NCBI RefSeq assembly: GCF_001563225.1
Contig: NZ_CP014206.1
Span: 1,054,001-1,118,000, forward strand
From: Pseudodesulfovibrio indicus
Lineage (GTDB): Bacteria; Desulfobacterota; Desulfovibrionia; Desulfovibrionales; Desulfovibrionaceae
DNA: 64,000 nucleotides
Direction: 5' to 3'
In this document: positions 20,022 to 57,981 of the stretch, in pieces
Numbering within the stretch: the first letter of the stretch is position 1
How the letters are laid out: the number at the start of each line of letters is the position of its first letter
Notes under the pieces: generated by a model
Databases searched by the model: none
Seen by the model: the letters and a program-made list of their open reading frames with translations, nothing else
What the model was told of the DNA's origin: nothing
Translations under genes and position numbers: made by a program

Positions 20022-20048
20022 CGCGGGGCGGCTTGCGATAGCGGGCCA

Positions 20049-20150
20049 TCCGCACATTTTTCGGCCCCGATCCAATCCTCGCGTAGTAAGCTACGCTGCG
20101 GTTGTCTCGGGTCCGAGAAAATGCACGGCTGACCCACTCTCCCAAGCCTA
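20049..20150. repeat. Structured intergenic element related to the 186-bp repeats at 34.6 kb
   Basis: An apical hairpin GCGTAG-TAAG-CTACGC lies at 20081-20096, inside a longer imperfect stem: CCGCACATTTTTCGG on the left with CCGAGAAAATGCACGG on the right. A tail GCTGACCCACTCTCCC follows. The same order (apical hairpin with a TNNG loop, outer stem, GGCACA...CACCCACTTCTCC tail) is seen in each tandem unit at 34.6-35.1 kb. It sits just after the acidic-protein gene. Its direction and function are unknown. Confidence 0.5.
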
Positions 20151-33652: not shown

Positions 33653-34149
33653 CCAACCTGGACCTGCACGACATGGCCCGCGTGGCCCGCAGCTACGGGC
33701 TGGGCGGGTTCTATGCCACCACGCCCATCCAGGACCAGAAGGCGCTGGCCGAAAAGCTCCTCTCCCACTGGCGGGAAGGGGCGGGCGGCAAGGCCAACCC
33801 GGACCGCGCCGAGGCCTTCTCCAAGGTCAAGGTTTTTGACGATATCGAGAGTGCGGTCCTTGACATCGAGGCCCAAACAGGGCAATGTCCCCGCCTCGCG
33901 GCCACTTCAGCAAGACTGGATCGCCGCCGGGAAGCCCAGCCCGCGCTGACCTTCGGGGATGTCCGGAACTGGCTCGCCAACACTCCAGTATTATTGATAT
34001 TTGGTACTGGACACGGTCTGGCGGAAGAAGTCCTCTCCAAGACGGACGGCATAGTGAGGCCGCTTCGGTATTTGGATGACTACAACCATCTGTCGGTGCG
34101 GAGCGCGGTGGCGATCATCGTGGACCGGCTCGTGGCGGATGAGTACTAG
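33613..34149 (+). pseudogene. SPOUT RNA methyltransferase domain (PF09936-like), separated from trmD by a frameshift
   Basis: About 179 residues in frame from GTG 33613: VHNKFGEKVAVSVTNLDLHDMARVARSYGLGGFYATTP, later NTPVLLIFGTGHGLAEEVL and the YNHLSVRSAVAIIVDRL knot region. This matches the SAM-dependent methyltransferase family typified by the Thermotoga protein encoded beside trmD. The family's N-terminus LYIALCHYP is in the trmD frame, so the domain was probably a C-terminal fusion to TrmD and is now out of frame by one missing C. A GTG start could still produce a truncated protein. Confidence 0.75.
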
Positions 34150-34220
34150 AGGCGGATGACAAAAGGCGGGCGCTGCCTGCAAGAACATCGTCCAGCACTC
34201 TCAAATTTAAGGAGATCACC

Positions 34221-34571
34221 ATGGACATCATCAAGAAAATCGAATCCGAACACATTCGTTTGGACATGCCCGAATTCAAGGCCGGCGACACCGTCAAGGT
34301 GCACTACCGGATCATCGAGGGCGAAAAAGAGCGCATCCAGGTCTTCCAGGGCGCGGTCCTGCGTCGCCGCCGCGGCACCACCAACTCCACCTTCACCGTG
34401 CGCAAGATTTCCGACGGCGTGGGCGTGGAGCGCGTGTTCCCCATGAACTCCCCGTTCATCGACCGCGTGGAAATCGTCTCCGAGGGCAAGGTCCGCCGCT
34501 CGCGCATCTACTACCTGCGCAATCTGCGCGGTAAGGCCGCCCGCATCAAGTCCAAGCAGATCTGGGAGTAA
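34221..34571 (+). CDS. rplS: 50S ribosomal protein L19
   Basis: A 116-residue ribosomal protein at the 30S-50S interface. It has FKAGDTVKVHYRIIEGEKERIQVFQGAVLRRRRG, TFTVRKISDGVGVERVFPMNSPFI and RVRRSRIYYLR-like KVRRSRIYYLRNLRGKAARI. AAGGAG lies about eight bases before the ATG. Downstream are three tandem repeats, each with a terminator, rather than rnhB directly. Confidence 0.97.
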   Translation: MDIIKKIESEHIRLDMPEFKAGDTVKVHYRIIEGEKERIQVFQGAVLRRRRGTTNSTFTVRKISDGVGVERVFPMNSPFIDRVEIVSEGKVRRSRIYYLRNLRGKAARIKSKQIWE

Positions 34572-34717
34572 TTTTTCGGATAAGCGGGCGTCTGCACCGC
34601 CGCTCGGCAAATCCGGACCCTTGCGTATTAGGATACGCGGCGGCCCCGGATTCGCCTCCCGTCGGCACAGTCACCCACTTCTCCAAAAAATTACAGGAAG
34701 ATCAGATAGGAATATAT

Positions 34718-34749
34718 GCCCGGAGTGTCCATCGACACTCCGGGCTTTT
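34718..34749 (+). terminator. Intrinsic terminator, repeat unit 1
   Basis: Perfect 12-bp stem (34718-34729 with 34734-34745), CATC loop, four Ts. Confidence 0.92.
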
Positions 34750-34903
34750 GTGCTTGTGTTTTGGGGTGGGCGGGCGTCTGCACCGCCGCTCGCGGAACCC
34801 GGACCCTTGCGTATTAGGATACGCGGCGGCCCCGGATTCGCCTCCCGTCGGCACAGCCACCCACTTCTCCAAAAAATTACAGGAAGATCAGACAGGAATA
34901 TAT

Positions 34904-34935
34904 GCCCGGAGTGTCCATCGACACTCCGGGCTTTT
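34904..34935 (+). terminator. Intrinsic terminator, repeat unit 2
   Basis: Identical to the unit 1 terminator: 34904-34915 with 34920-34931, CATC loop, four Ts. Confidence 0.92.
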
Positions 34936-35087
34936 GTGCTTGTGTTTTGGGGTGGGCGGGCGTCTGCACCGCCGCTCGCGGAACCCGGACCCTTGCCTAT
35001 TGGGATGCGCTACGGCCTCGGCTTCCGCTCCCGTCGGCACATCCACCCATTTCTCCAAAATATTGCAAGAAAACCGGTGAAATTTGC

Positions 35088-35119
35088 GCCCGGAGTGTCT
35101 CGCGACACTCCGGGCTTTT
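35088..35119 (+). terminator. Intrinsic terminator, repeat unit 3
   Basis: Same stem letters as the other two (35088-35099 with 35104-35115); the loop is TCGC instead of CATC, although the rest of this unit has diverged. Confidence 0.92.
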
Positions 35120-35225
35120 GTGGTTTGGATTCTTGGAGGAACGGTCTGGTACCTTGGTTTCCGGGGGCGGTTCGGAGTGGCTTTTCGGAACGATTTGAGG
35201 CACAAGCAGGGGCGGAGGAAGACCG

Positions 35226-35866
35226 ATGGCGCAGGTGTTGTTGTTTGGCGGGCGGAGTTTCGAAGCCCATGAGATCGCCGGGGTGGACGAGGCCGGGCGG
35301 GGGTGTCTGGCCGGGCCGGTGGTGGCCGGGGCGTGCATCCTGCCGGTGGAGTACGACCTGCCGTGGCTGAACGACTCCAAGCAGCTCAGCGAGGCCAGGC
35401 GGGAAACGCTGTATCCGCTCATCCGGGAGCAGGCCGTGGCCTGGGGCGTGGGCGTGGCCTGGCCGTGGGAGATCGACGCCATCAATATTTTGCAGGCCAC
35501 CTTCCGGGCCATGAGCCGGGCGGTGCGGGCCATGAAGGTCGAGCCGCGCTTCCTGCGCATCGACGGCGACAAGCTCATCCCGCGCCACGCACTTCAGCTG
35601 GACATCCCCAGGAATTCGTCATCAAGGGCGACGGCTCGGTCCCGGCCATCTCCGCCGCGTCCGTCCTGGCCAAGACCTTCCGCGACCGCCTCATGGTCCG
35701 CTTGGCCCGCCGCTATCCCGGCTACGGCCTGGAATCCCACATGGGCTACGGCACCAAGGCCCACGTCGAGGCCATCCGCACCCTCGGCCCTTGCCGCCTC
35801 CATCGGCTGACCTTCAAGAAGGTCAAACCCGAGGACAAGCCGCAGGTCCAGGCCTCCCTTTTCTAG
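35226..35866 (+). pseudogene. rnhB: Ribonuclease HII, disrupted by a one-base deletion
   Basis: RNase HII removes ribonucleotides from DNA-RNA hybrids. The 5' part encodes [20 protein letters not shown] (catalytic Asp21, Glu22) and [10 protein letters not shown], a third acidic residue. After LDIP the frame is wrong; the rest, [25 protein letters not shown] and [13 protein letters not shown], reads in another frame to the stop at 35866. One extra C near 35610 (ATCCCC to ATCCCCC) restores a protein of about 213 residues of normal length. Either a pseudogene or a sequencing error in a C-run. The stop is followed by palindromic element copy 3. Confidence 0.88.
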
Positions 35867-41909: not shown

Positions 41910-42125
41910 ATGGAATTGGATCTGTATTTTGCTGACGTGCTGTTCGTCTTTGCCCTGACGGCGTTCCTGGACGGCATCAGCTCCCATATGCGCGGTCTTC
42001 TGAAGGAGCGCTGCCCGGCCGTGTTCCGGTATGCCCGCCGCTTCGGACGGCGGTATCCGGCCCTGTTCGCCGAGTCAAACGACTTCTATTGCTTCTTTCA
42101 CAAGGACGCCCTGTACGGTCGTTAA
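41910..42125 (+). CDS. Small protein of unknown function
   Basis: A 71-residue protein starting MELDLYFADVLFVFALTAFLDG, with one probable membrane-associated or amphipathic helix at the N-terminus and a basic, aromatic C-terminal part (RRFGRRYPALFAESNDFYCFFH). I do not recognise it. It looks real because it has GGAGG at correct spacing, a promoter candidate upstream and a strong terminator downstream, and is flanked by genes on the other strand. Confidence 0.6.
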   Translation: MELDLYFADVLFVFALTAFLDGISSHMRGLLKERCPAVFRYARRFGRRYPALFAESNDFYCFFHKDALYGR

Positions 42126-42142
42126 GCCGCCAGCCCGCCCAC

Positions 42143-42190
42143 AAACCGGAAGGCCGGAAGCGCAACCCGCTTCCGGCCTTCCGGTTTTTT
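42143..42190 (+). terminator. Strong intrinsic terminator of the small-protein gene
   Basis: A perfect 20-bp stem (42143-42162 with 42168-42187), CAACC loop, and a T-run of six. Confidence 0.93.
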
Positions 42191-42257
42191 ACGGTCCCCC
42201 CGCGAGTCCTGCGGATGCGGACAGCAACGCCGCAGATCGCCTTTTTTCAACAGCCTG

Positions 42258-43085: not shown

Positions 43086-43524
43086 GCCAGTTGTCCGTCC
43101 GACTGAAAAACGTTTTCGATGTGCTCCACGTCCAGTGAGGAGCCGGTGTCCGTGACCGCGGCCAGGTCGAACCGGCACGGCTCGTCCCACAGCCCGTGCT
43201 CGCTCAGGTAGTGGCTGGCCGCCTTGATCAGGCGGGTCCGTTTGGCGCGGGTCAGGGCCTCGCCGGGCGCGCCCATGGCCCCGGCTTTGCGCGTCTTGAC
43301 CTCCACGAAGACCACGGTGTCGCGGTCGCGGCAGACCAGGTCCAGCTCCCATTGGCGGTGCTGCCAGTTGCGGTCGAGCACCCGGAACCCCTTGGTCTCG
43401 AGATACCGCGCCGCCGCGTCCTCGCCGAGGTCGCCGGTCCGCCGGTTGGGGTCGTCCGCGCCGCCGCGTCCTCGCCGAGGTCGCCGGTCCGCCGGTTGGG
43501 GGTGCGTCGTGTGAAGAAGCCCAT
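43082..43524 (-). pseudogene. yraN: YraN family protein, disrupted by a 50-bp tandem duplication
   Basis: YraN proteins are predicted nuclease-fold proteins near rsmI. The N-terminus reads MGFFTRRTPNRRTGDLGEDAAAR from the ATG at 43524. A 50-bp repeat then shifts the frame, and the true continuation YLETKGFRVLDRNWQHRQWELDLVCRD with FVEVKTRKAG (nuclease-like E-x-K) is in another frame. Removing one copy of the repeat gives one continuous protein of about 130 residues. The stop overlaps rsmI. A downstream piece starting at MLDRNWQHRQ could still be made. Confidence 0.88.
43406..43501. repeat. 50-bp tandem duplication inside yraN
   Basis: 46 identical bases at 43406-43451 and 43456-43501, offset by 50 bases. 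A 50-base unit is not a multiple of three, so it breaks the frame. Confidence 0.93.
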
Positions 43525-56933: not shown

Positions 56934-57950
56934 ATGGCCCGGCCCGAATGCGAGTCCCACACCGGGGCCTCCACCCACGCCGAACATGGCCGGCGGGTGG
57001 CCGACATGTTCGGCCGCATCGCCGGTTGGTACGACTTTCTCAACCACGCCCTGTCCGGGTGCCAGGACATCTACTGGCGCTACCGGCTGGCCAAGGCGGC
57101 CCGGCCCCGCCCCGGCTCAACGGTCCTGGACCTGGCCGCGGGGACCATGGACGTGTCCGTGGAGCTGCTGCGCCAGTACCCCGACTGCACCGTGGCCGCC
57201 CTGGACTTCGCCCTGCCCATGCTGGAGACCGGCAAGGTCCGCAAGCTCAAGGACGGGCGCGAAAAACGCATCTTCCCGGTCCAGGCCGACGGGCGTGCGC
57301 TCCCCCTGCCCGACGAGTCCATGTCCGCCGCGACCATCGCCTTCGGCATCCGCAACATCCTGCCCCGCGAGGAGGCCTACGCCGAGTTCATGCGCGTGCT
57401 CGAACCGGGCGCGCGGCTGTGCATCCTGGAGTTCGGCACCGGGTCCAAGCGGGTCTGGAAGGGGCTGTACAATTTTTATCTCGACAAGCTGCTGCCGTTC
57501 ATCGGCGACCGCATCTCCGGGGACCCCGGCGCGTACCGCTACCTGGCCGAGACCATCAAGAGCTTCCCGGACGAGCGGGCGCTCGGCGAGGAACTGCTCA
57601 AGGCCGGTTTCGAGCGGGTCTACAACGTGCCGATGATGTCCGGCATCGTCTACCTGCACGTGGCCGAGAAACCCGCCGCCCCCGTCGCGCAGCCTGCGCC
57701 GGAACCGGCGGCCCCCAAGGTTGTCCCGAAAGCCGAGAAGCCCGCGGCTCAGAAGGCCGAAGAGCAGAAGGCGGCACCGAAGAAGGCTGCCGCGAAGAAA
57801 TCCGCGGAGAAGAAAACGGCCGCCAAAAAGACGGTCGCCAAAAAGACCGGCAAGAAGGCGGCCCCGAAAAAGCCGGCCGCGAAAAAGTCGGCCGCGAAAA
57901 AGTCGGCTGCGAAGAAGTCGGCCCCGAAAAAGAGCGGGGCGAAGCAGTAG
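56934..57950 (+). CDS. ubiE: Demethylmenaquinone methyltransferase (UbiE/COQ5 family) with a Lys/Ala-rich C-terminal tail
   Basis: A 338-residue protein. Residues 1-245 form the methyltransferase: VADMFGRIAGWYDFLNHALSGC, VLDLAAGTMDVSVELLRQY (SAM motif), DFALPMLETGK, AATIAFGIRNI, LCILEFGTGSKRVWKGLYNFYL and FERVYNVPMMSGIVYLH. UbiE methylates demethylmenaquinone, giving menaquinone. Residues 246-338 are a tail rich in Ala, Lys and Pro (AAKKSAEKKTAAKKT, SAAKKSAAKKSAPKKSG) like eukaryotic histone H1 tails. No stop codon separates the parts. The tail is absent from usual UbiE proteins. Confidence 0.9.
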   Translation: MARPECESHTGASTHAEHGRRVADMFGRIAGWYDFLNHALSGCQDIYWRYRLAKAARPRPGSTVLDLAAGTMDVSVELLRQYPDCTVAALDFALPMLETGKVRKLKDGREKRIFPVQADGRALPLPDESMSAATIAFGIRNILPREEAYAEFMRVLEPGARLCILEFGTGSKRVWKGLYNFYLDKLLPFIGDRISGDPGAYRYLAETIKSFPDERALGEELLKAGFERVYNVPMMSGIVYLHVAEKPAAPVAQPAPEPAAPKVVPKAEKPAAQKAEEQKAAPKKAAAKKSAEKKTAAKKTVAKKTGKKAAPKKPAAKKSAAKKSAAKKSAPKKSGAKQ

Positions 57951-57981
57951 GCTCGGGCCCGGGTTTCTGGACAGTCCGGCC

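Follow-up and report, generated by a model that had tools for sequence, protein, structure and literature searches.

A probably tripled 3' tail of the rplS operon in Pseudodesulfovibrio indicus, combining a dispersed palindromic element with an intrinsic terminator

The tandem array located between rplS and rnhB in the analysed window (64,000 nucleotides of Pseudodesulfovibrio indicus, contig NZ_CP014206.1, positions 1,054,001 to 1,118,000 of the forward strand) most probably represents, at about three chances in four, the 3' untranslated tail of the rplS operon in triplicate. As judged from sequence comparisons, each unit would combine one copy of a dispersed palindromic element with the intrinsic terminator of rplS. 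Coordinates given below without another label are positions in this window, and features lie on the plus strand unless stated otherwise.

The rplS gene, coding for ribosomal protein L19, spans positions 34221-34571 with its TAA stop codon at 34569-34571, and its 3' tail is repeated: three copies of a 186-bp unit occupy 34573-35122, within the interval up to rnhB. Tandem Repeats Finder placed the repeat at 34584-35122, with a period of 186, 2.9 copies and 90% matches, and in the register without gaps the units are found at 34573-34758, 34759-34944 and 34945-35130. Unit 1 (34573-34758) was delimited by Tandem Repeats Finder and in-register comparison, unit 2 (34759-34944) shows 94-95% identity to unit 1, and the diverged unit 3 (34945-35122) was traced by repeat finding, in-register comparison and alignment, its identity being 67% in the ungapped register and 83% to unit 2 once aligned. 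All three share the same layout, namely a long hairpin of about 117 nt, then roughly 30 nt of AU-rich linker, then a terminator made of a 12-bp stem and TTTTG. The first copy of the hairpin element, an imperfect palindrome at 34574-34690 whose 5' arm begins directly 3' of the rplS stop codon, was matched by the family model R1 with 82.5 bits, a score that is partly by construction since unit 1 is among the 24 sequences used to build the model. The second (34760-34875) and third (34946-35061) copies scored 76.7 and 58.9 bits, respectively, the apical hairpin and inner stem of the latter being partly decayed. Compared with shuffled sequences, the fold of 34576-34750 in unit 1 has a z-score of -5.7 (0/200 shuffles equally good) and that of 34946-35122 in unit 3 a z-score of -3.1 (2/200), and the minimum-energy fold of unit 3 alone differs from the long hairpin. 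The initial annotation had recorded three copies with a 186-base period between the two genes, the first two nearly identical and the third diverged, with an unchanged 12-bp terminator stem; all of this is confirmed (95% vs. 67% identity, stem identical in 3/3 units), and the long stem-loop with apical hairpin that it saw in every unit holds for units 1 and 2 and is weaker in unit 3. Elsewhere in the window, Tandem Repeats Finder detected a 50-bp unit present 1.9 times at 43406-43501 (100%), and a tandem repeat with 15- and 30-bp periods lies at 57766-57952, whose unit would encode a lysine/alanine-rich sequence that we take to resemble histone H1-like tails.

The 12-bp stems (GCCCGGAGTGTC/GACACTCCGGGC) extend over 34718-34745, 34904-34931 and 35088-35115 and, together with the TTTTG that follows each of them, form the terminators at 34718-34750, 34904-34936 and 35088-35120, the last two obtained from the terminator scan. 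Over positions 34100-35400, seven terminator-like sites were counted vs. 1.3 ± 1.1 in shuffles, and of these seven the three 12-bp stems are the richest in G-C pairs; a GC-rich stem with a T run behind a gene is what characterises intrinsic (Rho-independent) terminators. These serial sites agree with the earlier suggestion of tandem terminators that could insulate rnhB. Over the same 34100-35400 interval, a crude scan covering one promoter type, sigma-70-like, gave 0 sites.

The GCCCG-type terminator was also searched downstream of rplS in related genomes. The rplS protein was matched in 40 of the 41 genomes searched, which provided loci from the source genome, from 23 of 24 further genomes of its genus (apparently Pseudodesulfovibrio) and from 16 of the order, with 11 more of the genus added; the protein search found no rplS in one genus genome, G076. 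Downstream sequence was read in 35 genus loci, that is, the source and 34 relatives. In 28 of these 35 genomes a GCCCG-type terminator follows rplS, separated from the stop codon by the hairpin in 19 and without it in nine, and its stem changes on both sides among the 28 (GTGTC/GACAC, GCGTC/GACGC, GTATC/GATAC, GCATC/GATGC). Because the type follows rplS so widely, with or without the hairpin, we assign it, on these alignments, to rplS as its own terminator. The seven genomes without it also have no hairpin element, and a branch with 100% SH-aLRT support sets them apart from the rest in a tree built from upstream DNA and rplS, the root of which is a midpoint only; terminator and element could thus have been gained together at rplS, the element being later lost.

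The next gene, rnhB (35226-35866), starts in the ORF 35226-35810 and continues, after a change of frame near 35600, in the ORF 35303-35866, which holds the conserved C-terminal part. Counted from the DEAGRG motif, its open frame is 174 codons long vs. 192-201 codons in 27 of the 29 other genus loci with this motif, the other two running off the stretch. This frame change is either a broken gene or a sequencing error. Recognised by the same motif, rnhB was located no more than 1.5 kb past rplS in 30 of the 35 genus genomes, i.e. in 15/19 loci with the hairpin element and 15/16 without it.

The hairpin itself belongs to a dispersed family of imperfect palindromes of about 117-120 nt. The R1 model (117 positions, 37 pairs, 24 copies) has 32 matches in the source genome, where stricter filters list 24 distinct places; some matches are the reverse strand of a single palindrome, so that match counts are not copy counts. 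At the genus level, 31 of 36 genomes have matches and five have none, the highest numbers being those of G062 and G076 with at least 102 each (every scored candidate matched). With the stricter filters, matches were obtained in 37 of 148 genomes of the phylum (source included), belonging to 24 of 110 genera. In alignment A3, 25 of the 37 pairs have changed on both sides; the core columns of this alignment were fixed by the collecting search pattern, and their invariance is an artefact that carries no evidential weight. When the rplS elements were aligned alone (17 of the 19, L037 and L204 being left out), both sides had changed in 13 of 33 pairs. Within the window, a diverged member was found at 20032-20148, 3' of an ORF of about 520 aa (31 bits, E 3.7e-7). 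The multi-copy structured element announced by the initial annotation is thereby borne out, as are its further copy near 20.05 kb, the covariation among homologous copies and the occurrence elsewhere in the genus and phylum. With many copies, intergenic positions and foldable sequences, the hairpin is a dispersed intergenic palindromic repeat of the REP/ERIC kind in the broad sense, and it behaves like such a genomic repeat and not like a gene. Rfam 15, searched at the gathering score, gave 0 matches in the window and only tRNAs in 14 family loci; the relatives proposed below that score, PyrG leader (E 2.3) and anti-hemB (E 3.6), are at chance level and were rejected. No published description of the family was found in literature searches.

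From its 5' end, an element consists of an outer stem, a box a (GCGGCG, GCTGCG, GCGTCG or GCTTCG, then TTGC), an inner stem of about 10-16 bp, a box b (CCTTGCG or CCTCGCG) and an apical GTA...TAC; the 3' half follows with box b' (CGCGGCGG or CGCTTCGG), the inner stem, box a' (mostly GCGCCTTGC) and the outer stem. At rplS, box a is mostly altered to ACCGCCGC. By their letters, boxes a/a' and b/b' look like a single mismatched motif in inverted order, and these conserved mismatches led us to consider an attC-like single-strand recombination site as a conceivable reading. One subfamily has the conserved ends CAGGCTGTTGAAAAA...TTTTTGAACAGCCTG. Another, with other inner arms (approximately GCACATTTTTC ... 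GAAAATGCAC) and a similar apex, comprises L216:1255-1373, L308:3687-3807, L223:5962-6079 and the copy at 20032-20148 of the window; in three of its four members, a sense stop codon precedes the element by 7-10 nt. By eye, L325, L337, L340, L349 and L351 carry a second TTTTTGAACAGCCTG-like stretch (e.g. CTTTTTCAACGGTCTGC) about 10 nt past the 3' arm, which would match the 5' arm with no G-G mismatch and is a possible alternative pairing partner. Also by eye, the 5' part of an element (CAGGCTGTTGAAAAA and box a) is found on the minus strand at 42100-42257 of the window, followed by a different palindrome, and the rest of the element is absent from view there. Hairpins outside rplS are followed by other terminators, by the next gene or by neither (by eye).

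The genus loci contain 117 genus-locus clusters of elements, 19 at rplS and 98 elsewhere. Twenty-three clusters have at least two elements, five of these being at rplS, and a spacing of 117-124 nt recurs in several of the multi-element clusters outside rplS, up to seven elements in a row in L324. In the adjacency test, all 19 rplS clusters have their 5' arm right against the rplS stop codon. For the other clusters, a sense ORF of at least 100 codons ending between about 24 nt before and 12 nt after the boundary was required. Such a stop codon is found at the 5' boundary in 41/98 clusters vs. 11/98 at the mirrored 3' boundary; the discordant cases are 37 vs. 7 (binomial p 5e-6, a value that is too small since orthologous loci are not independent). 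With called genes, the corresponding figures are 33/96 at the 5' end vs. 2/96 at the 3' end. In 38 of the 98 clusters, neither a long sense ORF nor an adjoining tRNA is present. As to the source genome, 12 of its 27 elements are co-directional cases, seven along transcription and five against it, so that orientation is mixed and the polarity is confined to the abutting cases. TAG was tried as an insertion target and rejected: the stops outside rplS are 23 TAG, 11 TGA and 7 TAA, against a background of 145 TAG, 106 TAA and 73 TGA, and these raw counts show no clear preference.

A tRNA gene is the other kind of boundary. In 19 of the 51 loci scanned, the 5' ends of a tRNA and of the element are about 10 nt or less apart, head to head, the tRNAs being Pro, Gln, SeC, Ser and Arg-CCG (orthologues included). 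The 3' end of tRNA-Arg-TCT is found at the element 5' end in one of the 51 loci, and none of them has a tRNA close to the element 3' end. Four tandem elements 117 nt apart lie at L214:3861-4431 (source genome 1371360-1371930), 8 nt upstream of the tRNA-SeC 5' end, which implies that the leader runs through this array or that the promoter lies inside it.

Returning to rplS, the hairpin element is found by R1 directly 3' of the gene in 19 of the 35 genus genomes, always in the sense orientation. Its absence from the other 16 means that it is dispensable there. It is present in three copies in the source, G062 and G104 and in two copies in G078 and G101, and short remnants were seen by eye in its place in G105 and G067. 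The tandem units are most like the other units of their own genome in 5/5 species, and five changes of the tandem label are needed on the tree, four as a minimum by the starred branches. On this comparison, tandem duplication at rplS seems to have happened independently in each of the five species; fewer events followed by gene conversion between the units could produce the same pattern. The objection that all copies might be recent random duplications in this strain holds in part: this tripling was seen in the source species only, but other species have a single unit and four other genus genomes have tandem copies.

The same distribution bears on a neutral origin, in which a selfish palindromic repeat entered the rplS tail once and slippage has since added and removed tandem copies that have no role. 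We consider this possible but unlikely. It would agree with the patchy presence (19/35), with the remnants and the decay of unit 3, and with match numbers ranging from 0 to more than 100 between congeners, but paired positions keep covarying, placement at stop codons and tRNA ends is polar and tight in many clusters, and tandem copies are found at one locus in five species.

Beyond the phylum, a core-pattern scan of genome contigs yielded at least 118 stretches, and R1 was run on 65 of 80 loci, leaving out genus or near-genus loci, loci already in the model and one locus of 136 nt. Among the matches listed, 47/65 loci reached E ≤ 0.01, a level to be read knowing that the shared core alone yields up to about 29 bits, and 20/65 reached at least 35 bits over the full length, L112 among them being a near copy of a model sequence. 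When the whole genomes behind such loci were searched, 17 of 18 had matches at E 0.001, from 1 to 10 each. Judging by these alignments, the better R1 matches in different phyla probably share a common origin. Five places in G266, the genome behind L082, hold element pairs arranged head to head, with 12-16 nt between their 5' ends. The polarity recurs in these phyla, with 36/70 elements at the 5' boundary vs. 8/70 at the other (orthologues included, among the matches listed). Most of the proteins abutting these elements look like real genes, which we take, from the look of their sequences, to include GroES, ArgF, Pgk, RpoC, RpsD and DnaA.

ERIC and MITE-like palindromes, likened by description, share the size class, the gene-adjacent position and the dispersal of the hairpin family. 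Stop-codon polarity and covarying arms are features measured in the hairpin family. Such imperfect palindromes, ERIC included, are named in the accessible part of PMC3733652, together with REPs and BIMEs, which it describes as dispersed intergenic palindromes often located 3' of genes. The rplS family resembles the latter in being dispersed, intergenic, palindromic and often at gene 3' ends. Unlike REPs, which measure 20-40 nt, its members are about 120 nt long with conserved internal mismatches, and their 5' end is set against a stop codon far more often than the other end; no sequence tie to E. coli REPs was seen. A RAYT-driven REP was rejected for the source genome, in which PF01797 (Y1) had 0 matches, 5 of 14 control genomes being positive; the 5' flanks listed are mostly stop codons and CAGG, GTAG being seen only within some TAG stops (by eye). 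The CGTC-tagged REPs, palindromes without a known transposase according to the accessible part of PMC3733652, offer a parallel, as CGTC is found in box a of some copies, but those REPs are short with an unpaired tag at one end, while the box of the hairpin family is internal and variable. Neither 'Desulfovibrio' nor 'CTTGCG' occurs in the main text of PMC3733652, as far as it was accessible. The nearest published counterparts would be the multicopy 'short RNA elements' of Geobacter metallireducens, described with the central palindrome GRCGTAGCGCTGCTACGCC in the accessible part of PMC2700814; likened by description, they are also dispersed and intergenic, with a central CGTA...TACG resembling the apical stem.

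The dispersal and the boundary preference could also be those of a mobile element whose dedicated, unrecognised enzyme sets its 5' end at gene borders on insertion. In favour of this are arrays with as many as seven tandem elements (L324), the many clusters whose 5' end meets a stop codon or a tRNA 5' end and the conserved ends of the CAGGCTGTTGAAAAA...TTTTTGAACAGCCTG subfamily, but the absence of the Y1 transposase from the source genome, the lack of any plasmid or phage match with one 151-nt query and the 38/98 clusters with neither kind of boundary leave it improbable. At a similarly low level, we also entertain the idea that the family across phyla, with its mismatched motif pair (CCTTGC/GCGGCG, inverted) between covarying stems and its 5' end at gene boundaries, may be of an undescribed kind, either a boundary-inserting mobile element or a post-stop RNA device.

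The small RNA genes in a row proposed by the initial annotation, i.e. three tandem trans-acting genes each with its own promoter and terminator, fared poorly. Each unit is indeed closed by a strong terminator and its hairpin covaries, but the crude scan gave no sigma-70-like site, the terminator occurs without the hairpin in nine genomes, every rplS cluster has its 5' arm set against the rplS stop codon, and the dispersed hairpin stands elsewhere in both orientations to its neighbours, often without such a terminator (by eye); this reading is very unlikely. A leader or attenuator cascade regulating rnhB by a signal, which the succession of hairpin-then-terminator units upstream of rnhB might evoke, is slightly less likely still, as no antiterminator was seen by eye, the element is missing in 16/35 genomes, 15 of them with rnhB within 1.5 kb of rplS, and similar elements lie behind unrelated genes in other phyla.

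For the preferred reading, a tripled tail of the rplS operon, the following mechanism may be proposed. The tripling would be the product of local duplication, with repeats recombining or slipping against each other. The rplS mRNA would end at one of the three serial terminators, which would keep transcription out of rnhB. This terminator part is well founded. The stable hairpin, which begins only a few nt away from the stop codon, would face the ribosome finishing L19 and might lower or shape L19 output, shape decay or protect the 3' end, as reported for stop-proximal REPs of E. coli; according to the accessible part of PMC12306157, ribosomes stall at REPs no more than 15 nt away from a stop codon. 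By this analogy, the ribosome-stalling part is proposed tentatively, at little more than one chance in three.

A repeat abutting stop codons in one orientation, at housekeeping genes of several phyla, would count as a widespread trait of bacterial gene ends that has no name yet. The rplS locus of related species offers a natural series, with 0, 1, 2 or 3 hairpin-terminator cassettes behind one and the same gene, which allows the effect of extra terminators and stop-proximal hairpins to be asked.
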